NCBI GenBank assembly: GCA_030040815.1
Contig: JASHSZ010000130.1
Coordinates: forward strand, 1-7,200
DNA: 7,200 nt
Source: Streptosporangiaceae bacterium
Lineage (GTDB): Bacteria > Actinomycetota > Actinomycetes > Streptosporangiales > Streptosporangiaceae
Direction of reading: 5' to 3'
A program made the position numbers and the translations under genes. The notes under the pieces are model-generated. The model worked only from the letters and a program-made list of their open reading frames with translations. It was not told the origin of the DNA and did no database searches. Positions 1-7,200 of the stretch are shown here, in pieces; within the stretch, counting starts at the first letter, position 1; the number at the start of each line of letters is the position of its first letter.

Positions 1-201
1 CAGCGCTGCCGCCGGGACGGGCCCCGCGTCCAGGCGCCCGGCGGCGGCGGTCCCCGACATGCCGGTCAGGTAGGAAAGGTAGCCGGGTACCAGCGGCAGG
101 CAGCACGGTGACAGGAAGGTGACCGCGCCGGCGGCGGCCGCCACAGGGATGGCGAGCAGCACCGGTCCGGAGAGGATCAGGTGCTCGACTCCGCCACTCA
201 C
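1..201 (-). CDS. ccdA: CcdA/DsbD-family thiol-disulfide transmembrane protein, N-terminal part (cut by window edge)
   Basis: The first 67 residues of a membrane protein are visible and the frame stays open to the left edge. The start is a GTG at 201-199, preceded by a good GGGAGG Shine-Dalgarno site about 8 bases upstream. A hydrophobic first helix (about residues 13-30) leads into the motif FLSPCCLPLVPGYLSYLTG (residues 29-47), the hallmark of the CcdA/DsbD central domain. That family carries electrons across the membrane from cytoplasmic thioredoxin to extracytoplasmic proteins, for example in cytochrome c maturation. The family usually has SPCxLPLVP with one cysteine at this point; here a second cysteine follows it directly. 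The gene is last in a minus-strand series after yidC and the hydrolase remnant. The family call is firm; the exact role (c-type cytochromes or other thiol targets) cannot be told from this part. Confidence 0.85.
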   Translation of the reverse strand, partial: MSGGVEHLILSGPVLLAIPVAAAAGAVTFLSPCCLPLVPGYLSYLTGMSGTAAAGRLDAGPVPAAAL

Positions 202-236
202 GTCTTGCCTCCCGCTGCGACCTGCTCGGACCGCAT

Positions 237-520
237 CTAAGTTACTCGGGCTCCAGCGGTCAGGCAGCAGATGGCCGGGCGAGCGCCCGACGGCTCACAA
301 CGACGCAGGACGTCCAGCAGCCCGAAGCAGTGCTCGGGGTCGTCGAACTGGGCCAGGCGGCTGCCGTCCGGGCAGTGCAGGTATCGGCCCCGCGGCAGCT
401 GACCGGACATCCAGCACATGTGGGCGGGGTCCATGCTGTCGTGGGCGGAATCATCCGCGAGCCGCGGGAGATGATGTCGCGCGGCAGCCACGTGGACGTG
501 TCGAAGTACGAGACGGCCTG
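237..520 (-). pseudogene. Decayed C-terminal fragment of a proline-iminopeptidase-like alpha/beta hydrolase
   Basis: The frame from GTG 491 to TAG 237 (84 codons) contains HDSMDPAHMCWM, then LPRGRYLHCPDGSRLAQFDD and a GLLDVLRR end. From memory this resembles the C-terminus of proline iminopeptidases (DTMDPxxMxxM, then GRYLxCPxGSHLAxxDD, then GLxxFL). The Asp in DSMDP would be the catalytic acid. The catalytic His of GSH is Arg here (GSR), so even this part would be inactive. Upstream of about 450 the strong third-position G/C bias moves to another frame, which reads SYFDTSTWLPRDIISRG at about 511-461; this points to a frameshift. No Shine-Dalgarno site precedes GTG 491 or the in-frame ATG at 434, and the N-terminal catalytic-serine half is absent. 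A repeat copy abuts the broken end (521-553). The alternative is a real small protein of 65-84 residues. Homology is judged by eye only. Confidence 0.5.
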
Positions 521-553
521 CGCTGGCCCTGGGGGACGACCCCCGGACCCCCC
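521..553 (-). repeat. G/C-rich dispersed repeat, copy 1
   Basis: On the minus strand the element reads GGGGGGTCCGGGGG, TCGT, CCCCC, AGGGCCAGCG. It aligns with copies at 4330-4363 and 4926-4959: a G-run, T, one variable base, C, a second G-run, TCGT, a C-run, then GGGC and AGC. The second G-run and the C-run can form a 5-bp hairpin with a TCGT loop. This copy lies between yidC and the hydrolase remnant and touches the broken end of the remnant. Confidence 0.65.
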
Positions 554-631
554 TGCTGTGCAGTCACGACGGACAACCTATCCCGCCTCCGTGCTGTTGG
601 GCAGTATGCGGCTGCGGGCGGTGGTGCTTGG

Positions 632-1393
632 CTACCCGGCTGTCGCGCTCGGCGCTGCGCGACCTCGCCGATGGGACCGATGCCGCCAGACGGCTCGTTC
701 CGCGCCGGTCCAGGTCGTCGTCGTGAGCAGGTAGAGCCCGGCCGCCAGCGGCACGAACGCGGCGATGACCACCGTGATGTAGGGCAGCGCGCGGCCGAGC
801 AGGCGGGCCGGCCCGGTGCGGGGCGCGGCGGCGGCCGGCAGCGGTCCGCTGCGGCTGGCGGATTGGCTGATCCGCGCGACGGCGAAGCACGCGAGGGCCA
901 GCAGAGCGAACAGGCCGAGGAACACCAGGCCGTGGAGGCTCAGCGGACCCACACCGGTCAGCCAGTGGCTGCCCAGGGGAGTGCCGAGCAGGTTCCTGGC
1001 CAGCAGCGCGTTCGGCCGCCCGGCCACCGTCTTGGACAGAAAGAGCCGGTAGAGCACGCTGAAGAACGGCAGCTGCACCAGGAGCGGCAGGCAGCCGCCC
1101 AGCAGCGTGCCGCCCTGGGCCTGGTAGAACGCAGCGAGCTCGCGCTGCAGCCGCTCGGGCTGGTGGGCGTAGCGGGTGCGCAACTCGGCCACCTGCGAGT
1201 GCAGCGCGGCGAGACCGGCCTGACCGCGAAGCGCGGCGAAGCTGACCGGCGACAGCAGCAGCCGCACGGCAACGGTGAAGATCACGATCGCCGCGACGGT
1301 GGCGAGCCCGCCGGGCAGCGGTGCCAGCATGTGGGCCAGGTCGAACAGCAGGGCATAGGCAACGCCCAGCGGCGCATTGAGGAATCCGAGCAT
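632..1393 (-). CDS. yidC: YidC/Oxa1-family membrane protein insertase, short actinobacterial paralogue
   Basis: This 253-residue polytopic protein would insert or fold membrane proteins in the cytoplasmic membrane. It has the family layout without the large extracytoplasmic domain of Gram-negative YidC. A hydrophobic segment at about 30-52 ends in VRLLLSPVSF, where Arg44 fits the conserved positive residue of the insertase groove. A charged cytoplasmic hairpin follows (about 66-92), then GCLPLLVQLPFFSVLYRLF (100-118), a helix at about 153-173 and a last helix at about 204-225 ending TTTTWTGAERAV. The ATG start at 1393 has a GGAGGG site 9 bases upstream. The C-terminal tail is short and Arg-rich. 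It lies 104 bases downstream of the DUF6412 gene on the same strand, a pairing common in actinomycetes, so this is probably an accessory copy rather than the essential yidC beside rnpA and rpmH. That last point is inference, because the genome is not visible. Confidence 0.93.
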   Translation of the reverse strand: MLGFLNAPLGVAYALLFDLAHMLAPLPGGLATVAAIVIFTVAVRLLLSPVSFAALRGQAGLAALHSQVAELRTRYAHQPERLQRELAAFYQAQGGTLLGGCLPLLVQLPFFSVLYRLFLSKTVAGRPNALLARNLLGTPLGSHWLTGVGPLSLHGLVFLGLFALLALACFAVARISQSASRSGPLPAAAAPRTGPARLLGRALPYITVVIAAFVPLAAGLYLLTTTTWTGAERAVWRHRSHRRGRAAPSATAG

Positions 1394-1497
1394 GGTGAAC
1401 TGCCCTCCAGCAGGTCGAAGATTTTCTGGGTCAGCTGGAGGCGGCCGCGAGGTATAGAGCCAGCTAACGCGTCTGGCACCCTAGGCAGCGGGCAAGG

Positions 1498-1812
1498 TCA
1501 GGCGGCCGCCCGGGCGGCCGACGGTGCCCTGGGCCGGGCGCGGCCGGCCGCGTCCGGATCACGCTGGCGCTGGAATACCGCACCCCACGACTTGCGGCGG
1601 AGCGCGATGGCACGCCGTAGCAGCGGCCCGGCAGGGGTAATGCTCCCCGTCGGCCGCCCGTGCGCAACCACCGCGAGCAGCGTCGCGACCAGGGCGAGGG
1701 CCGCGATGGCGAGCGCGCCCGCCGGCGTCGCTGGCGGATGGCCGGCCAGCTGCCACCAAGCGGCTAGCTGTGCCACCGAGATAGCGAGCGTTATGCGGAA
1801 CACCCAGGTCAC
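1498..1812 (-). CDS. DUF6412 small membrane protein, YidC neighbour
   Basis: This 104-residue protein has two predicted membrane helices, at about residues 5-22 (ITLAISVAQLAAWWQLA) and 31-51 (an Ala/Leu-rich stretch). A cytoplasmic basic tail follows, with LRRKSWGAVF and then QRQRDPDAAGRARPRAP (81-97). That RDPDAAGRxRPRAP tail is what I recall as typical of DUF6412 proteins, which occur next to a short YidC in many actinomycetes. Its biochemical function is unknown; work alongside the insertase is inferred only from the neighbourhood. The start is a GTG at 1812 with no convincing ribosome binding site. A TAACCT hexamer ends 7 bases before it, which would suit a leaderless mRNA. The gap to yidC is 104 bases and shows no terminator, so co-transcription is likely. 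Confidence 0.8.
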   Translation of the reverse strand: MTWVFRITLAISVAQLAAWWQLAGHPPATPAGALAIAALALVATLLAVVAHGRPTGSITPAGPLLRRAIALRRKSWGAVFQRQRDPDAAGRARPRAPSAARAAA

Positions 1813-1819
1813 AGCAGAC

Positions 1820-1825
1820 AGGTTA
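1820..1825 (-). promoter_or_regulatory. Possible -10 box for a leaderless DUF6412-yidC transcript
   Basis: On the minus strand TAACCT fits the actinobacterial TANNNT -10 pattern. Its distance of 7 bases would put the transcript start on the GTG codon itself. No clear -35 box is seen, and in such GC-rich DNA the match is only suggestive. Confidence 0.3.
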
Positions 1826-1876
1826 CGCCGCCTAGGGCCGGCTCGGCTCGCAGCCGCGGCCGACGCCGCGGGGGCG

Positions 1877-1915
1877 GGGCGGGCTCCGCCGGGTTAACCG
1901 GGCCGGAGCCCGCCC
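1877..1915. terminator. Strong hairpin with 12-bp perfect stem between two minus-strand genes
   Basis: GGGCGGGCTCCG (1877-1888) pairs perfectly with CGGAGCCCGCCC (1904-1915) across a 15-base loop. The loop holds the palindrome GGTTAACC. The hairpin lies between the end of the small membrane protein gene (2109) and the start of the DUF6412 gene (1812), so it could end transcription coming from the former. Neither side has a real T-run (only TTCGCGTCTT on the plus strand), so this would be a hairpin-only terminator of the kind often proposed in actinobacteria. The structure is certain; the function is inferred. Confidence 0.5.
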
Positions 1916-2108
1916 TTCGCGTCTTGCTACGGCGCTCTGCCGTCGGCCGGCTCGGTGACGACCGCGGGACAGCCCGTCCGCTGACACGATGGCGCGACCA
2001 TGCGCACTGAGACAGCGACGGCTGGCAGAGTCCTTCCGGGCGGGCCCGGTTCTGCGGGCCGCTCCGACCGCCCGGCGTAAGGGTCTTGCTGGTGGCTGAG
2101 CCAGCAGC
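1916..2108. other. Non-coding stretch between small membrane protein gene and hairpin
   Basis: No reading frame here looks like a real protein on either strand. A short inverted repeat, GCTGG/CCAGC at 2088-2105, lies just after the stop of the small membrane protein gene and might take part in its termination. Nothing else is recognised. Confidence 0.4.
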
Positions 2109-2387
2109 TCAGGCGTGTGTCCGCTGAAGGCCGTTGTGCTGTTGCCAGGCGGCCGCGCCCGCAGCACTCGCTGCTTTCGTCTGGCTCCACTTGTGCCTGG
2201 CCGCCTCGCTCGGCGTCACTTCGAGCTCGCGGAACCACTGGCGGCAGGCGGACGCCAGCGCGGTTCCGCCGACAAGCATGCCGATGAGCCCGATCAGGCC
2301 GCCGGTGCCCACGAGCACGGCGCCGGTGATCATTGACGACTTGTTCAGCTGGAATGCGGTAGAGGAGTAGGTCTGGCCGTTCTTCAT
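2109..2387 (-). CDS. Small actinobacterial membrane protein of unknown function
   Basis: This 92-residue protein starts at the ATG at 2387, chosen because a good AAGGA site lies 7 bases upstream. The frame is open further upstream, but that part does not look coding. A polar N-terminus (MKNGQTYSSTAFQLNKSS) leads into one long hydrophobic, Gly-rich helix at about residues 19-47 (ITGAVLVGTGGLIGLIGMLV). An amphipathic segment with WFRELEVTPSEAARHKWSQ (51-69) and an Ala-rich tail follow. From memory, similar short proteins with a Gly-rich helix followed by RRW.R.L...PSE are widespread in actinomycetes, but I know of no assigned function. It probably sits in the membrane with its charged tail in the cytoplasm. 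It follows speD on the same strand about 300 bases downstream, but there is no evidence that it belongs to the polyamine cluster. Confidence 0.75.
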   Translation of the reverse strand: MKNGQTYSSTAFQLNKSSMITGAVLVGTGGLIGLIGMLVGGTALASACRQWFRELEVTPSEAARHKWSQTKAASAAGAAAWQQHNGLQRTHA

Positions 2388-2485
2388 GTGTGTCCTTCCC
2401 CCGAAGAGTGTGATCGCTTTGGTCACCGTTCCCGTGGTGCGGTGCCGGAGCGTCATCCGTTCCGGGTGATTGCGGCCAGCACCGC

Positions 2486-2660
2486 TCACCCGAGCTGGCG
2501 CAAGGCGTCCTCGACCACGCGGTGGAAAGCGGAATCGGCGTCGGCCATCTCCGCAGCCGGGACACCCGGACCGGTGCGCGCACTGCGACGTCAGCACGAT
2601 GAGGAAGCGCGCGCCCCCGTCACGCCCGATGGCGCCGACACTCCGGTAGACCAGCCGGCC
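2486..2660 (-). pseudogene. Possible frameshifted remnant of a small unknown protein
   Basis: The stretch 2388-2686 between speD and the small membrane protein gene has no intact gene. On the minus strand, two pieces in different frames look protein-like and have high third-position G/C. One reads LVYRSVGAIGRDGGARFLIVLTSQ (about 2655-2585, only partly quoted in some alignments). The other reads ADADSAFHRVVEDALRQLG and stops at TGA 2486. Joining them needs one frameshift at about 2550-2590. No start codon with a ribosome binding site is seen for the first piece. I do not recognise the family. It may be a decayed gene, a sequencing error in a real one, or chance. Confidence 0.25.
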
Positions 2661-2686
2661 CGGGCGATGTCGGCGCCGCAGCGCGG

Positions 2687-3097
2687 CTAGGCGCGCCGCT
2701 GGCCGGGGATGCCCCGGTCGACCTCAGCGACTTGGACGGAGGTGAGGTGCAGAGCGGCGGTCAGTTCGTCCAGCACTCGCTGCCCGTCGATCGCACCGCA
2801 GCTGAACAGGTCGATCGCGATCAGGCGCTCCTCGGGCCAGGTATGGATCGACAGGTGCGACTCGGCGAGGATCAGGACCAGCGTGAGTGCGCCGTTGGGG
2901 AACACGACATGGCTGTTTGCGAGCACGTGCCCGCCGCCAGACCGGACGGCAGCGCCCGCGAGGTCGGCCAGCGCAGCGACGTCGGTTACCGGGGACGCCG
3001 CGGTGCAGGCAGCGTCGATGGCGTAGAGGCGCTTGGGTGAGGTGGCTTCCCGGCGGCGCAGGTCGGCGTAGCCGCTCGCCACGTCCATGGACGGCAT
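2687..3097 (-). CDS. speD: S-adenosylmethionine decarboxylase proenzyme (SpeD, prokaryotic pyruvoyl type)
   Basis: This 136-residue protein would decarboxylate S-adenosylmethionine to give the aminopropyl donor for polyamine synthesis. The signature LAESHLSIHTWPE (78-90) contains the Glu79-Ser80 self-cleavage site, where Ser80 becomes the pyruvoyl cofactor. His85 (SIHTW) and Cys100 (LFSCG) match the processing and catalytic residues of the family. GGHVLANSHVVFPNGA (55-70) is also typical. The length fits the short one-piece bacterial enzymes (about 120-140 residues). The frame is open far upstream, but that part is antisense to bpsA. I chose ATG 3097; ATG 3088 is possible. There is no Shine-Dalgarno site, and TATTCT ends 8 bases upstream, so the mRNA may be leaderless. 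The gene is divergent from bpsA with a 76-base gap, and BpsA needs the product of SpeD. Confidence 0.95.
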   Translation of the reverse strand: MPSMDVASGYADLRRREATSPKRLYAIDAACTAASPVTDVAALADLAGAAVRSGGGHVLANSHVVFPNGALTLVLILAESHLSIHTWPEERLIAIDLFSCGAIDGQRVLDELTAALHLTSVQVAEVDRGIPGQRRA

Positions 3098-3173
3098 GAT
3101 GTGGAAGAATACCGTACCTGTGGCGAGGGGCTCAGAGTCGTCCCCCCGGCGCGGCACGGGTGAACAGACAGCC
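3098..3173. promoter_or_regulatory. Shared divergent promoter region of speD and bpsA
   Basis: This 76-base gap separates two head-to-head genes. On the minus strand TATTCT (3111-3106) lies 8 bases before the speD ATG and fits a -10 box for a nearly leaderless transcript. On the plus strand TACCGT (3110-3115) also fits TANNNT and overlaps it, so the two promoters would be mutually exclusive or jointly regulated. GTCGTCCCCCCGG at 3137-3149 looks like half of the dispersed repeat and would lie in the bpsA leader. No -35 boxes or operator palindrome are clear. Confidence 0.4.
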
Positions 3174-4394
3174 ATGGACATAGACGAAGCAGTGCTCGCC
3201 GTCGCGGCTGCCGTGGGCCTGGCAGAGGGCGAATCGGGCATCCGTGACATCCTGTCGGCGGTGCTGACCGCCGAGCCTGCTGCCGTGCGCGAGATTGCCC
3301 GGCTTGCCGAGCTGCCGGTGCCGATCGTGGCGGCGACCTGCAACGAGCTGCGTAAGCACGGCATCGTGGATACCCAGCGGCCGGTCCGGCTCACGGTCAG
3401 CGGCCGGGCCGCCGTCGCGGCGGCCAACCTCGCGGTGGACCTGCGGGCCACCTGCCCGGAGTGCGGCGGGCGCGGCGAGGTCGTGCCCCGCGAACTGGCC
3501 GGCCTCGCGGCTACGCTGCACGCGATCGCCGAGGGGACGCCCAGCGCGAAGGCCGAGCTCGATCAGACGCACTGCACCATCGACACCAAGCTGGGCCGCG
3601 TGCTGCGGCTGCACCAGGCCCGCGCGCTGGCCGGGCAGCGCATCATCCTGCTGGGTGACGACGACCTCGTCTCGGTCGCCCTCGCGCACTTCACCGTGCA
3701 GACCGGCCATGCGGGTGCGATCCGCCGGCTCACGGTTGTCGACAGCGATGCTGACATCCTGGCCTGGATTGACCGGAACGTGGCCGACACCGGGACTGTC
3801 GTCGAGACGGTGCGGCATGACTTGCGCCAGCCGCTGCCTGCCGAGCTCGCGAGCGGGTTCGACGTTGTGCTGACAGACCCGCCGTACACCGTGGCCGGAG
3901 CGCAGTTGTTCCTGAGCCGGGCGGTGTCCGCTCTGGTGCCGCGGCCGGGTCGGCACGTGTTCTTTTCCTTCGGGGCGCGACGGCCGGACGAGACGATCGC
4001 GGTGCAGCGTGCCGTGGCCGAGATGGGGCTGGTGATCAGGTCGCTCGCGCCGGGCTTCAACGAGTACCTTGGTGCTGGCGTGCTCGCGGGTACCAGCAAC
4101 CTGTACCACCTGCGCACGGCGGCCGGGGCCCGCCCGCTCATCGACGGCGAGTACGACGGACCGCTGTACACCGCGGCTAACCGGGTCGTGTCCACCAGGC
4201 CCTATCGGTGTGCCCGCTGCCGCGAGGTCCACGAGGTGGGCCCCGGTGGACGCTGGCCGCAGATCGCGGCGCTCCAGGCGGCGGGCTGTCCCGCGTGCGC
4301 CGGAACCGTCTTCCGGCCGATGCCCCTGCGGGGGGTGCGGGGGGTCGTCCCTCCGGGCCAGCAGCAGCCCCTCCAACCACGGCGGCACCGATGA
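3174..4394 (+). CDS. bpsA: BpsA-type branched-chain polyamine synthase (N4-bis(aminopropyl)spermidine synthase family)
   Basis: This 406-residue aminopropyltransferase would move aminopropyl groups from decarboxylated AdoMet onto an inner nitrogen of a linear polyamine such as spermidine. A winged-helix-like N-terminal domain (about 1-85, ending LRKHGIVDTQRPVRLTVSG) is followed by CPECGGRGEV (94-103). A Rossmann methyltransferase-like core follows, with ILLGDDDLVSVA (158-169; the GDDD motif of BpsA) and DVVLTDPPYT (230-239). The C-terminus adds CARC (346-349) and CPAC (372-375), which look like a four-cysteine zinc ribbon. Residues from about 386 (GVRGVVPPGQQQ) are encoded by repeat copy 2 and look like an acquired tail. 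I chose the ATG at 3174 because the upstream ATG at 3087 would overlap the start of speD; GGTGA lies 10 bases before it. The stop overlaps the next gene by ATGA. The archaeal enzyme is, as I recall, about 350 residues. Linear products cannot be excluded without assay. Confidence 0.9.
   Translation: MDIDEAVLAVAAAVGLAEGESGIRDILSAVLTAEPAAVREIARLAELPVPIVAATCNELRKHGIVDTQRPVRLTVSGRAAVAAANLAVDLRATCPECGGRGEVVPRELAGLAATLHAIAEGTPSAKAELDQTHCTIDTKLGRVLRLHQARALAGQRIILLGDDDLVSVALAHFTVQTGHAGAIRRLTVVDSDADILAWIDRNVADTGTVVETVRHDLRQPLPAELASGFDVVLTDPPYTVAGAQLFLSRAVSALVPRPGRHVFFSFGARRPDETIAVQRAVAEMGLVIRSLAPGFNEYLGAGVLAGTSNLYHLRTAAGARPLIDGEYDGPLYTAANRVVSTRPYRCARCREVHEVGPGGRWPQIAALQAAGCPACAGTVFRPMPLRGVRGVVPPGQQQPLQPRRHR
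4330..4363 (+). repeat. G/C-rich dispersed repeat, copy 2 (inside the bpsA 3' end)
   Basis: The element reads GGGGGGTGCGGGGGG, TCGT, CCCTCCGGG, CCAGCA. It matches copies 1 and 3 at most positions, with a few substitutions and G-run length changes. The second G-run and CCCTCC can pair as a 6-bp stem with one G-T wobble and a TCGT loop. It is translated as the last part of BpsA, just after the zinc-ribbon-like segment and about 30 bases before the next start codon. Confidence 0.7.
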
Positions 4395-4912
4395 CCGGGT
4401 ACCTGGTCCGGCCCGCGACGGCCGCAGACGTCGAGGCGATCGTGGCATACGAGATCGACATTGCCGTCGTTTCGTTCGCCGACGACGCCATCACCGACCC
4501 GGCGCTGCACCGCAAGCGGGTGACCGGCGCGCTCGGCAAGCCGGGGGAGATCATGCTGGTCGCGGTCGCCGAGCGCGCGCCGGATGCACCGGTCGGCTGG
4601 GCCTGGGTGTCGGCCAGGACCAACTCGCTCACCGGAGACCGGTACGGCAACTTCCGGTCCCTGGCCACCTCGGCGGGCCCGGACCGCGGTCACGTTGGCG
4701 AGGTGCTGATGGCGGCGGTGCTCGCGGCGGCGGACAAGGCCGGGCTGACCCAGCTGACCGGCAAGGTCCACGCGGGCAACCTCGGCATGCGGACGCTGTA
4801 CCGGAAGTACGGCTTTACCGCTACTCACCTCACGATGGAGCGCAGGGCCGAGCCGACCGACAACTCGAGCCGGCCGGTGCAGCCGCCGGCAACCGGCGGA
4901 CCCCGTGGCTAG
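4391..4912 (+). CDS. GNAT-family N-acyltransferase of the polyamine operon
   Basis: This 173-residue protein has the GNAT fold pattern throughout. It starts YLVRPATAADVEAIVAYE (4-21), the usual strand 1-helix 1. A strand-rich middle follows (EIMLVAVAE, VGWAWVSA). The acyl-CoA-binding motif A is seen at about 98-117 (DRGHVGEVLMAAVLAAADKAG), then KVHAGNLGMRTLYRKYGF (125-142), the motif B region with Asn130 and Tyr137. GNAT enzymes transfer acyl groups, mostly acetyl from CoA, to amines, and polyamines are classic substrates (as for SpeG). Its place between bpsA and the FkbH/ACP pair suggests a polyamine acceptor and perhaps an acyl-ACP donor; both points are inference. The ATG overlaps the bpsA stop (ATGA), so translation is probably coupled. 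The last 20 or so residues look unstructured. The 3' end overlaps the next gene by 8 bases. Confidence 0.88.
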   Translation: MTGYLVRPATAADVEAIVAYEIDIAVVSFADDAITDPALHRKRVTGALGKPGEIMLVAVAERAPDAPVGWAWVSARTNSLTGDRYGNFRSLATSAGPDRGHVGEVLMAAVLAAADKAGLTQLTGKVHAGNLGMRTLYRKYGFTATHLTMERRAEPTDNSSRPVQPPATGGPRG

Positions 4913-6023
4913 CGCAAGCGCCGCAGGGGGTTCGGGGGGGTCGTCCCGCCGGGCTAGCACGGTCGGTGCCCCGATCAAGTGCGTGGTGTGGGACATCGAC
5001 AACACCCTGCTAGACGGCATCTACCTGGAGTCCGATCAGCAGCCGCCGCCGGCCGACCCAGTGCTCCTGAGCGTGCTGCGCGAACTGGCCGAGCGCGGCA
5101 TCCTGCAGGCGGTGGCCAGCCGGAACCCGCCGGCCGCCGCCGAGTACGTGCAGCGGCTCGCCGGGCTGGAGCTCGCCGCTGCCGAGTGTGGGTGGGACGC
5201 CAAGCCGGAGGCCCTCCGGCGGATAGCGGCCAGTCTGGACGTGCCGGCCGACGCGATGGCGTTCATCGATGACGACATGGTGGAGCGCGCCGAAGTCGCG
5301 GCGGCGCTGCCCGCTGTGTTGGTCTTGACACCCGAGGACGCAGCCGAGGCGGCGAGCTGGCCGCAGTTCAGCCCCCCGGTCGTGACCGCCGAGGCGCGCC
5401 GGCGCGGCCAGCTGTACGTCGAGCGACGGCGCCGCCAGGCTGCCGCGCGCGAGTTCGGCGGCTCCCGCGCGGAGTTCCTGCGGCACGTGGGTACGCGCGT
5501 CACGATCGCGCCCGCGACGGCGGCCGACGTGCCCCGCCTGCTCGAGCTGTCAGTCCGGACACACCAGCTGAACTCGGCCGGACAGCCGGTGACCGAGGCC
5601 GAGCTCACGGCGCTGCTGACATCGGCTGGCCAGCACATCACGACGGTCAGGCTTGCTGACAACTTCGGTGACGACGGCCTGGTGGGCGCCGCGATCGTGA
5701 CCGGCAGTGGCGGCGGGCGCTCGCCAGGGTCGGCGGCGACGGCGATGGCGCCGCTGGTGATGATGTCCTGCCGCGCGCTCGGCCGCGGTGCACTCGACGC
5801 GCTGCTGGCCTTTCTGTGCCGGTCGGCCGCCGCGGCAGGCGCCGCCAAGCTGACGGTGCCGTGCCGGGTGACCGACCGCAACGTGCCCTTCCGGCTGGCC
5901 CTAGCCGCCGCGGGGTTCCGGGCCGAGCCCGGCGTGACCGGGGCCGACGGGCGGGCGCTGTTCAGCCGGCCGCTGACCGGGGAGCTACCCCGGCTGCCGG
6001 ACTTCGTCGTGGCACTGCCGTGA
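4905..6023 (+). CDS. FkbH-like HAD-family glyceryl transferase/phosphatase (HAD-IIIC)
   Basis: This 372-residue FkbH-like protein would take the glyceryl unit of 1,3-bisphosphoglycerate, remove phosphate and load it onto an acyl carrier protein, as FkbH proteins do in methoxymalonyl- and glyceryl-ACP pathways. The HAD domain has motif I KCVVWDIDNTLLDG (25-38; Asp30 and Asp32), motif II AVASRN (69-74; Ser72), motif III WDAK (97-100) and motif IV FIDDD (120-124). The C-terminal half is the GNAT-like FkbH domain, with FTIA-like VTIAPATAADV (199-209), RTHQLNSAG (218-226), FGDDGLVG (254-261) and MSCRALGRG (287-295). Both halves match the FkbH subfamily that carries RTHQLNSTG. The GTG start at 4905 has weak GGCGGA 4 bases upstream; translation is probably coupled. 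The first 22 or so residues (Ser/Gly/Arg-rich) are encoded across repeat copy 3. The stop overlaps the ACP start (GTGA). Confidence 0.9.
   Translation: MASASAAGGSGGSSRRASTVGAPIKCVVWDIDNTLLDGIYLESDQQPPPADPVLLSVLRELAERGILQAVASRNPPAAAEYVQRLAGLELAAAECGWDAKPEALRRIAASLDVPADAMAFIDDDMVERAEVAAALPAVLVLTPEDAAEAASWPQFSPPVVTAEARRRGQLYVERRRRQAAAREFGGSRAEFLRHVGTRVTIAPATAADVPRLLELSVRTHQLNSAGQPVTEAELTALLTSAGQHITTVRLADNFGDDGLVGAAIVTGSGGGRSPGSAATAMAPLVMMSCRALGRGALDALLAFLCRSAAAAGAAKLTVPCRVTDRNVPFRLALAAAGFRAEPGVTGADGRALFSRPLTGELPRLPDFVVALP
4926..4959 (+). repeat. G/C-rich dispersed repeat, copy 3 (inside the 5' end of the FkbH-like gene)
   Basis: The element reads GGGGGTTCGGGGGGG, TCGT, CCCGCCGGG, CTAGCA. It aligns base for base with copy 2 apart from a few substitutions and G-run length. 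It encodes GGSGGSSRRAS near the protein start, a linker-like segment before the HAD domain. The 7-base word GGCTAGC occurs on both sides (4907-4913 and at its right end, 4952-4958), which might be a trace of insertion or may be chance. Confidence 0.65.
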
Positions 6024-6274
6024 CGGCCGCGGACCAGCTGGCCGCCGAACTGGCCGATCTGCTGGCCGAGATCACCGGGCGGGCCGAGCTGCGCGGCATC
6101 GACCCGACGACCCCGCTGCTGCGCGGCGGCGCCGGGCTGGACTCGCTGGCCGGCACGCTGCTGCTGCGGCAGGTCCACCGCCGGTACGGCGTAGACGTCG
6201 CGGCCGAGGACCTCAACCTGGATGCGCTGGAGACCCTGGGCGCCCTGGCGGCGTTCATCGCGGCGCGGATCTAA
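6020..6274 (+). CDS. Free-standing acyl carrier protein
   Basis: This 84-residue protein is the size of a discrete carrier protein. The phosphopantetheine site is AGLDSLAG (38-45) with Ser42, and helix 2 follows as TLLLRQVHRRYGVDV (46-60). DLNLDALETLGALAAFI (64-80) matches the usual helix 3-4 end. It would be modified by a phosphopantetheinyl transferase, which is not encoded here, and would carry the glyceryl unit loaded by the FkbH-like protein. The GTG start overlaps the FkbH stop (GTGA at 6020-6023), so the two are probably made in a fixed ratio. FkbH/ACP pairs normally sit in PKS or NRPS clusters, but none is in view. The last 20 bases overlap the convergent antiporter gene. Confidence 0.9.
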   Translation: MTAADQLAAELADLLAEITGRAELRGIDPTTPLLRGGAGLDSLAGTLLLRQVHRRYGVDVAAEDLNLDALETLGALAAFIAARI

Positions 6275-7190
6275 CGGCGGTGCGGTGCAGCGTGGTGGCA
6301 ATGGCCGGGTACACGAGGACCGACACGACCCCGGCGCCGACCAGCGCGGCCGCGTTTGAGGGCAGCATGACGCCGTCACTGAGGCCGATCGCGGCGAGCG
6401 CGATCAGCAGCGGCATGGTGGTCGCGGCGATGAAGGTCATCTCGAGCCGCTCCCGGAACGGCAGCACCGGGGCGTAGATCAGCAGCGATGGCAGGCCGCG
6501 CACGACGAGGAGCAGGACCGCGAAGACGATGAGCCGGAGCGGATTGGCGGCGATCGAACGGATGTCGAGAGACATGCCGGAGGAGACGAAGAACAGCGGG
6601 ATGAAGACGTCGTAGCCGACCGCCTCGAGCTTGTTCTCGAGGGCGTCGGCGTCGACCTCCGTCCGGCGTGTCCACCGGCGCAGCACGACGCCTGCCAGCA
6701 CCGCACCGAGCACGACGTCAAGGCCAAAGTGGGCGGCCAGGCTCAGCAGCACGATCAGCAGCACGATGGACCAGCGAAAGATGGGCAGCAGCAGCGTACC
6801 GAGCGCCGTGGTCGTCAGCGCGAGGCCGATGGGCACGAAGTCGCGGACGAAGCCGAACGAGGCGAGCACCGCGACGGCTGCCACCGCCAGCGCGGCGCTC
6901 ACCAGCCAGCCGACGATAGCCATCCGGCCCGATCGCTCTCGTAGCTGGCCAGGTTCTAGCTCGTAGCCCGCCAGCAGGAACAGGAACCCGAGGCCGATGT
7001 CGGAGAGCAGCGAGATGTCGGCGGGGTGGCCGATATCGAGGCCCTGCGGGCCGATCAGGATGCCGCCGAAGATGAGCACGACGACCTGCGGGATGCGCGG
7101 GCCGGGTAGCACGCCGACGATCGCCGGCGCCAGCGCGGCCACCAGGACCACGGCGAGCAGGGTGTCGAGCCCCTGTTCCGTGGGCGTCAC
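6255..7190 (-). CDS. CPA2-type cation/proton antiporter (Na_H_Exchanger family), internally shortened
   Basis: This 311-residue membrane protein is related to KefB/NhaS-type exchangers that swap Na+ or K+ for protons. The N-terminal half is typical: LPGPRIPQVVVLIFGGILIGPQGLDI (about 28-53, with the conserved IGP), then LSDIGLGFLFLLAGYELEP (62-80). The later part has HFGLDVVLGAVLAGVVLR (154-171) and DVFIPLFFVSSGMSLDI (194-210), also family signatures. Between TTTALGTLLLPI (126-137) and the LLIVLLSLAAHFGLDVVLG segment, the family usually has about 70-90 further residues with ion-site helices; here they are joined directly at about residue 138. The reading frame is intact. I used GTG 7190; the frame is open to the window edge (three more codons), so the true start could lie outside. 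The 3' end overlaps the ACP gene on the other strand by 20 bases. Activity is doubtful. Confidence 0.85.
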   Translation of the reverse strand: MTPTEQGLDTLLAVVLVAALAPAIVGVLPGPRIPQVVVLIFGGILIGPQGLDIGHPADISLLSDIGLGFLFLLAGYELEPGQLRERSGRMAIVGWLVSAALAVAAVAVLASFGFVRDFVPIGLALTTTALGTLLLPIFRWSIVLLIVLLSLAAHFGLDVVLGAVLAGVVLRRWTRRTEVDADALENKLEAVGYDVFIPLFFVSSGMSLDIRSIAANPLRLIVFAVLLLVVRGLPSLLIYAPVLPFRERLEMTFIAATTMPLLIALAAIGLSDGVMLPSNAAALVGAGVVSVLVYPAIATTLHRTAVRSAPR

Positions 7191-7200
7191 GTGCGCCAGT

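Follow-up and report, generated by a model that had tools for sequence, protein, structure and literature searches.

A 7,200-nucleotide stretch of a Streptosporangiaceae genome (contig JASHSZ010000130.1, positions 1 to 7,200; hereafter the window) carries a compact cassette of five genes, in which speD stands head to head with bpsA, a GNAT acyltransferase gene, fkbH and a gene for a free acyl carrier protein (ACP). We propose that it encodes a dedicated pathway in which an amine would be aminopropylated by SpeD and BpsA and then capped by the GNAT with a glyceryl-type acyl unit that FkbH loads onto the ACP, and we give this reading a probability of about one half. The first-pass annotation of this DNA had joined the five genes in one candidate pathway, and we find them side by side in two actinobacterial groups that are only distantly related.

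The divergent layout and the overlaps described in that annotation were confirmed. The speD gene (2687..3097, minus strand) encodes a 136-residue protein resembling class 1b S-adenosylmethionine (SAM) decarboxylases, as judged from alignments and from its match to AdoMet_dc (PF02675, 76.9 bits; Pfam cut-off 25). Its score to the NCBIfam equivalog TIGR03330 (75.4) lies just under the cut-off of 75.65. The probable start is the ATG at 3097, and seven Streptosporangiaceae-type orthologues begin at matching MPG or MPS residues. A gap of 76 bases (3098..3173), presumably a two-way promoter region, separates this start from that of bpsA. The other four genes all lie on the plus strand. They are bpsA (3174..4394; 406 residues), for a BpsA-family aminopropyltransferase (BpsA_C, PF01861, 130.2 bits; cut-off 27); the GNAT gene (4391..4912; 173 residues; Acetyltransf_3, PF13302, 28.5 bits; cut-off 25.4); fkbH (4905..6023; 372 residues; TIGR01686, 200.3 bits; NCBIfam cut-off 146.65), for a predicted ACP acyl loader with an HAD-IIIC domain and a C-terminal GNAT-like domain that carries SCRxxGRG; and the ACP gene (6020..6274; 84 residues; PP-binding, PF00550, 44.9 bits; cut-off 20.8), with the attachment residue Ser42 in GLDSLAG. 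Successive genes overlap by ATGA (4391-4394), by 8 bases (4905-4912) and by GTGA (6020-6023), and in the relatives the junctions are usually close or overlapping as well. A dispersed repeat with the core GGGGGTCGTCCC occurs three times in the window, at 533-544 (minus), 4340-4351 (plus) and 4936-4947 (plus), versus 0.14 copies expected. The second and third copies fall in the closing part of bpsA and the opening part of fkbH and contribute to the BpsA tail and to the N-terminal extension of FkbH, so that these exact junctions are local to the window.

Scanning genome contigs with the window FkbH yielded nine loci, eight from Streptosporangiaceae metagenome-assembled genomes (MAGs) and one from an Actinomycetes MAG. 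All five contigs of sufficient length (L001-L005) contained the five genes in order. L006 runs from speD through bpsA and the GNAT gene to fkbH at the contig end, and L008, whose title assigns it to the same MAG, opens with the tail of fkbH followed by the ACP gene; L009 extends from speD to the start of fkbH, again at a contig end. The neighbours vary, with yidC and an antiporter gene in several loci and a phosphate transporter gene in L003, and because the flanking genes differ in this way, the five genes are taken to be the unit. Some genomes in these comparisons are MAGs of unstated completeness, so that gene absences are weaker evidence than presences.

A second, distant version of the cassette was found in the order of genome G031, where 8 of 245 genomes contain BpsA and all eight also contain speD, the GNAT, fkbH and the ACP gene. 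The proteins are 35-47% identical to those of the window, and the hosts would be Streptomyces or close kin. BpsA and the GNAT form a single open frame in each of these eight Streptomyces-like loci, and each has a phosphopantetheinyl transferase (PPTase) homologue of the ACPS superfamily at most 1.1 kb from speD (PF01648, 53 bits in L045). Near the cassette in seven of the eight lie tyrosinase orthologues (identified by Pfam in L045) and the same small protein, which we take to be a chaplin; these neighbours point to the suggested Streptomyces affinity of the hosts. The eighth locus, L087, has the same gene set outside this tyrosinase neighbourhood, indicating that the set stays together at more than one genomic place.

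The association between SpeD and BpsA extends to whole genomes. SpeD was found in 12 of the 245 genomes of this order, namely in all eight with BpsA versus 4 of the 237 others (Fisher p about 2e-12, a value that ignores genome relatedness). In a phylum sample of 396 genomes, 14 had a BpsA above the cut-off and three (G003, G031 and G198) combined a cluster-type BpsA with the GNAT and fkbH. Exactly these three scored 565-578 bits with a profile of the cluster FkbH, while the score elsewhere was at most 287 bits, with no more than five candidates scored per genome. A further genome, G141, has speD and bpsA but not the other genes. The ten remaining BpsA genomes of this sample showed no GNAT or fkbH match in short loci, with a speD match nearby in five (L020, L021, L023, L024 and L030). 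In 15 of the 16 cluster genomes no AdoMet_dc protein other than the cluster SpeD was found, and six of the nine genomes searched for FkbH had only the cluster copy. In a protein database, all matches listed for BpsA and for FkbH (at least 120 each) were at least 70% identical; with close relatives so numerous, the compound may be widespread.

BpsA-like genes as such are a different matter. A BpsA match was obtained in 205 of the 249 genomes of the order of G003; among 30 loci examined over about 3.5 kb each, one was the G003 cluster and the other 29 (L058-L086) all lacked a speD, GNAT or fkbH match, so we rejected any BpsA-like gene as a marker of the cassette. A tree of 43 rows, with 15 of these 29 loci, placed the non-cluster BpsA group apart from the cluster type, which comprised 16 of the 17 cluster rows together with L046 (support 90/97; rows L009, L048 and L106 are fragments). 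A SpeD match was absent from 16 of 20 chosen genomes with other BpsA-like genes; as these genes have no speD beside them and their genomes mostly no SpeD match, their products may not use decarboxylated SAM (dcSAM).

A second speD, whose product is 92% identical to the SpeD of L045, was observed in genome G536 (L106:3074-11204) with a PPTase gene and a divergent BpsA-like gene. Further genes of this region encode a BtrH_N protein, a B12 radical SAM protein, a PIG-L-like protein (just under the cut-off) and an alpha/beta hydrolase. In L089, L090 and L092, the gap between speD and the PPTase gene contains what looks like a counterpart of this hydrolase. During the synthesis of butirosin, BtrH transfers acyl groups to an amine from an ACP. 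The region looks like another small biosynthetic cluster, and the renewed pairing of a SpeD/BpsA locus with carrier-protein-type partners fits the pathway that we propose for the window.

From gene content, conservation, the fusion and the residues described below, we infer the reactions together with their acceptor, their product and the donor used by the GNAT. SpeD would produce dcSAM, from which BpsA would transfer an aminopropyl group to an amine acceptor, not necessarily spermidine. FkbH would charge the free ACP with a three-carbon acyl unit, for which glyceryl derived from 1,3-bisphosphoglycerate is the likeliest candidate, and a PPTase, in the Streptomyces-like version the one encoded near the cassette, would activate the ACP. 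The GNAT would then take this acyl group off the ACP and attach it to an amine of the compound made by BpsA, so that the end product would be an N-acylated, aminopropylated small amine.

Several observations weigh against this scheme. In L007, bpsA, the GNAT gene and fkbH lack an adjoining speD, the speD of that genome (G007) being on another contig. L046, a related locus, has overlapping speD and bpsA (8896-10421) and no match to the GNAT, fkbH or the ACP; it falls in the cluster-type tree group without a firm position there, and may reflect a stage that preceded the arrival of the remaining genes. No homologue of the L045 PPTase was found by tblastn within the Streptosporangiaceae-type loci, to which this search was confined. 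The tail of the window BpsA shows no recognisable counterpart of the acidic carrier cluster (Glu339-Glu345) of the T. kodakarensis protein, with which the alignment stops at residue 306. The structural matches of the GNAT include many acetyl-CoA enzymes, the top one being an uncharacterised N-acetyltransferase. Finally, a Tyr takes the place of the third of three key SpeD residues in all ten SpeD rows outside the Streptosporangiaceae type (the eight Streptomyces-like L044, L045 and L087-L092, plus L106 and L046).

The core of BpsA is well preserved. GDDD at 161-164 (Gly157-Asp160 of the reference), Asp235 (Asp225) and Tyr298 (Tyr290) are invariant in all 11 BpsA rows, two of them Streptomyces-like; the position of Glu259 aligns, counted by hand, to Arg270 of the window protein next to a gap. 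The roles of GDDD, Asp225 and Tyr290 in the T. kodakarensis enzyme are described in the available portion of PMC12979288, which also attributes the aminopropyl carriers of BpsA, and its choice of substrate, to the acidic C-terminal cluster. The window protein has a Cys4 zinc-ribbon-like tail (CxxC...CxxC; Cys346, 349, 372 and 375) with few clustered acids. We read the window BpsA as having a putatively active core for dcSAM binding but acting on another acceptor. This departs from the first-pass annotation, which had inferred an acyl-capped branched polyamine; an N4-branched product is not supported. Spermidine is not supported as the acceptor in the window lineage because no strong spermidine synthase match was found there: the best Spermine_synth match in eight Streptosporangiaceae-type genomes reached 41.6 bits and one genome gave none at all, although import, another route or gaps in the MAGs might account for this. 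In the eight Streptomyces-like genomes, the best matches reached 71-115 bits and lay in frames 541-582 residues long. Matches to the Orn/Lys/Arg decarboxylase family in 13 of the 16 cluster genomes make diamines plausible acceptors.

The fusion to BpsA in all eight Streptomyces-like loci suggests that what BpsA makes is the most likely substrate of the GNAT. The donor is less certain, and in another wiring of the same parts the GNAT would acetylate the aminopropylated amine from acetyl-CoA, and the ACP-bound unit would be attached either by the FkbH C-terminal domain or by some enzyme whose gene lies outside the cassette. The predicted structure of the GNAT (predicted local distance difference test score, pLDDT, of 77; weak past residue 126) lends this some weight, as its nearest folds are acetyltransferases, among them the polyamine acetyltransferases DpA and SSAT; the matches listed span many GNATs, including aminoglycoside acetyltransferases. 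FkbH, moreover, carries a GNAT-fold domain of its own. The canonical motif A of acetyl-CoA GNATs is Q/RxxGxG/A. In an alignment to 4j3g, the Gly at position 4 is replaced in all 17 rows, as could be expected if the donor were not free CoA. Acyl transfer from the ACP by the GNAT would also account for the joint conservation of ACP and GNAT without calling on an extra enzyme, and we consider the acetyl-CoA wiring unlikely.

The FkbH and ACP sequences are consistent with a functional loading pair. Residues D30, D32, T34, S72, K100, D122 and D123 and the SCRxxGRG motif of FkbH are invariant in 14 of 14 rows, and the phosphopantetheine Ser of the ACP is kept in all 15 aligned rows. We take the conserved HAD residues and SCRxxGRG to be active-site marks of the FkbH family; the motif also occurs in the FkbH proteins of L107 and L108, and L109 has SCRVVSFG. 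The FkbH model comprises an HAD domain and a GNAT-fold domain (pLDDT 84, predicted template modelling score 0.56). That the unit is glyceryl would follow from FkbH precedent, the available part of PMC7489565 proposing glyceryl-ACP from genes. A second alternative concerns the loading step: the unit may not be glyceryl, or aminopropylation may take place on an ACP-bound intermediate instead of on a free amine. The cluster FkbH proteins are indeed divergent, scoring 175-212 bits to TIGR01686 versus 363-403 bits for three other FkbH proteins in the same genomes, and the additional Cys4 tail of BpsA could bind a protein partner. The agreement of the HAD motifs and SCRxxGRG with FkbH from other loci speaks against it, however, and this alternative seems to us somewhat less probable still than the acetyl-CoA wiring.

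For SpeD, the role as maker of the aminopropyl donor suggested in the first-pass annotation held up as a prediction for the window and became doubtful for the second group. Ser80, His85 and Cys100 of the window protein correspond to S63, H68 and C83 of the T. maritima SAM decarboxylase and are kept in all eight Streptosporangiaceae-type rows, the window included; the window SpeD also retains both central prolines of that protein. The three T. maritima residues are reported as essential in the accessible text of PMC10407285, which adds that SpeD homologues can prove to be decarboxylases of arginine or ornithine when no spermidine synthase accompanies them. Production of dcSAM by the window SpeD is thus a well-founded prediction. 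It is uncertain in the Streptomyces-like branch, where C83 is a Tyr in all eight proteins and another product may be made; all ten Tyr-bearing SpeDs are candidates for altered or lost decarboxylase activity. Carried further, the same observations would make SpeD an amino-acid decarboxylase and BpsA an enzyme with another donor, so that the pathway would not involve aminopropylation, and the lack of a SpeD match in most of the chosen genomes with other BpsA-like genes points the same way. The intact residues and prolines of the window SpeD, the adjacency of speD to a bpsA with an intact GDDD and the presence of SpeD in every BpsA genome of the order of G031, as against few of the others, speak against this, and we regard it as improbable.

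The remaining alternative, in which FkbH and ACP would furnish a polyketide synthase (PKS) or nonribosomal peptide synthetase (NRPS) elsewhere with an extender derived from glycerate (hydroxy- or methoxymalonyl-ACP) and would lie beside bpsA incidentally, is very improbable. Of the three other FkbH genes closest by profile, those of G029 and G177 (not that of G208) do adjoin acyl-CoA dehydrogenase-like and PKS/NRPS-like genes, as judged by eye from translations, but the window has no oxidising enzymes, FkbH is mostly the only copy in its genome, and the BpsA-GNAT fusion and the shared presence of the cluster genes also weigh against this alternative. The first-pass annotation had named a PKS or NRPS just outside the operon as a finding that would count against its proposal. 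When 15 loci were scanned for motifs, neither a ketosynthase nor an adenylation motif was found and only two stray HHxxxDG matches appeared, and supply to such an enzyme was rejected on this ground; the accompanying family scan covered some of the flanking open reading frames (ORFs).

The pathway that we favour combines elements of several known systems. With N4-bis(aminopropyl)spermidine synthase (BpsA) of T. kodakarensis and T. thermophilus, the window BpsA shares the BpsA_C family, GDDD and the equivalents of Asp225 and Tyr290, and 5xnc and 6j27 are solved relatives; it differs in having the Cys4 tail in place of the acidic cluster, in its fusion or coupling to a GNAT, and in a lineage with no strong spermidine synthase match. 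Fusion to an aminopropyltransferase in one lineage, the lost motif-A Gly and a possible ACP donor likewise set the GNAT apart from DpA and SSAT, whose fold it has in common. GNAT-fold N-acyltransferases of the FeeM/LuxI type move acyl groups from a dedicated ACP to an amine and serve as our working analogy, although the acceptor differs. Aminopropylation is also used in a small-molecule pathway in the tailoring of microcin C7; that compound is a nucleotide peptide made by other enzymes. In its FkbH-domain protein and stand-alone ACP, the cassette resembles tetronate and methoxymalonyl-ACP systems, such as the mad7/mad8 and mad14/mad12 pairs of tetromadurin, which are proposed to make glyceryl-ACP in the part of PMC7489565 available. 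Unlike these systems, the nine window ORFs scanned show no dehydrogenase, methyltransferase, FabH-like or PKS family, and hence no counterpart of the two dehydrogenases beside FkbH and ACP in the methoxymalonyl-ACP cassette; FkbH and the ACP are accompanied here by a GNAT and a pair of polyamine type instead.

Around the cassette, a CPA2-type antiporter gene (6255-7190, minus strand) converges tail to tail on the ACP gene and was excluded from the unit. Its product is about 80 residues shorter than the L001 relative, with an internal gap near residues 122-138 that would reflect either a deletion or an assembly fault. A 92-residue protein without a Pfam match (2109-2387, minus) is 55-84% identical in L001, L002 and L006. 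Adjoining genes for a YidC-like insertase (632-1393) and a DUF6412 protein (1498-1812), both on the minus strand, are also present in L001, L002, L003, L006 and L009.

As the first-pass annotation had supposed, the combination appears to be undescribed. In the open-licence literature we found no paper joining "bis-aminopropyl spermidine synthase" with Streptomyces, SpeD with FkbH, or glyceryl, polyamine and acyl carrier protein with Streptomyces, nor, among the papers listed, one joining branched-chain polyamine with FkbH, and the available part of PMC11107197, on bacterial aminopropyltransferases, does not mention BpsA. The product of the cassette is probably an undescribed acylated amine. 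More tentatively, and with the balance of our judgement leaning against it, the cassette may define a new class of carrier-protein-dependent polyamine conjugate, in which an amine built by SpeD and BpsA without a spermidine synthase is capped by the BpsA-coupled GNAT with a glycerate unit from a dedicated ACP, feeding 1,3-bisphosphoglycerate into amine biosynthesis.

These findings suggest a likely role for a SpeD that mostly has no second copy in its genome, and for BpsA-type enzymes outside thermophiles, the organisms in which the accessible text of PMC12979288 describes them. Cluster-finding tools may miss cassettes this small. If the proposal is true, it would reveal an amide-forming branch of glyceryl-ACP chemistry that needs no adjoining PKS or NRPS, and the Streptomyces-like hosts would make it open to laboratory study.

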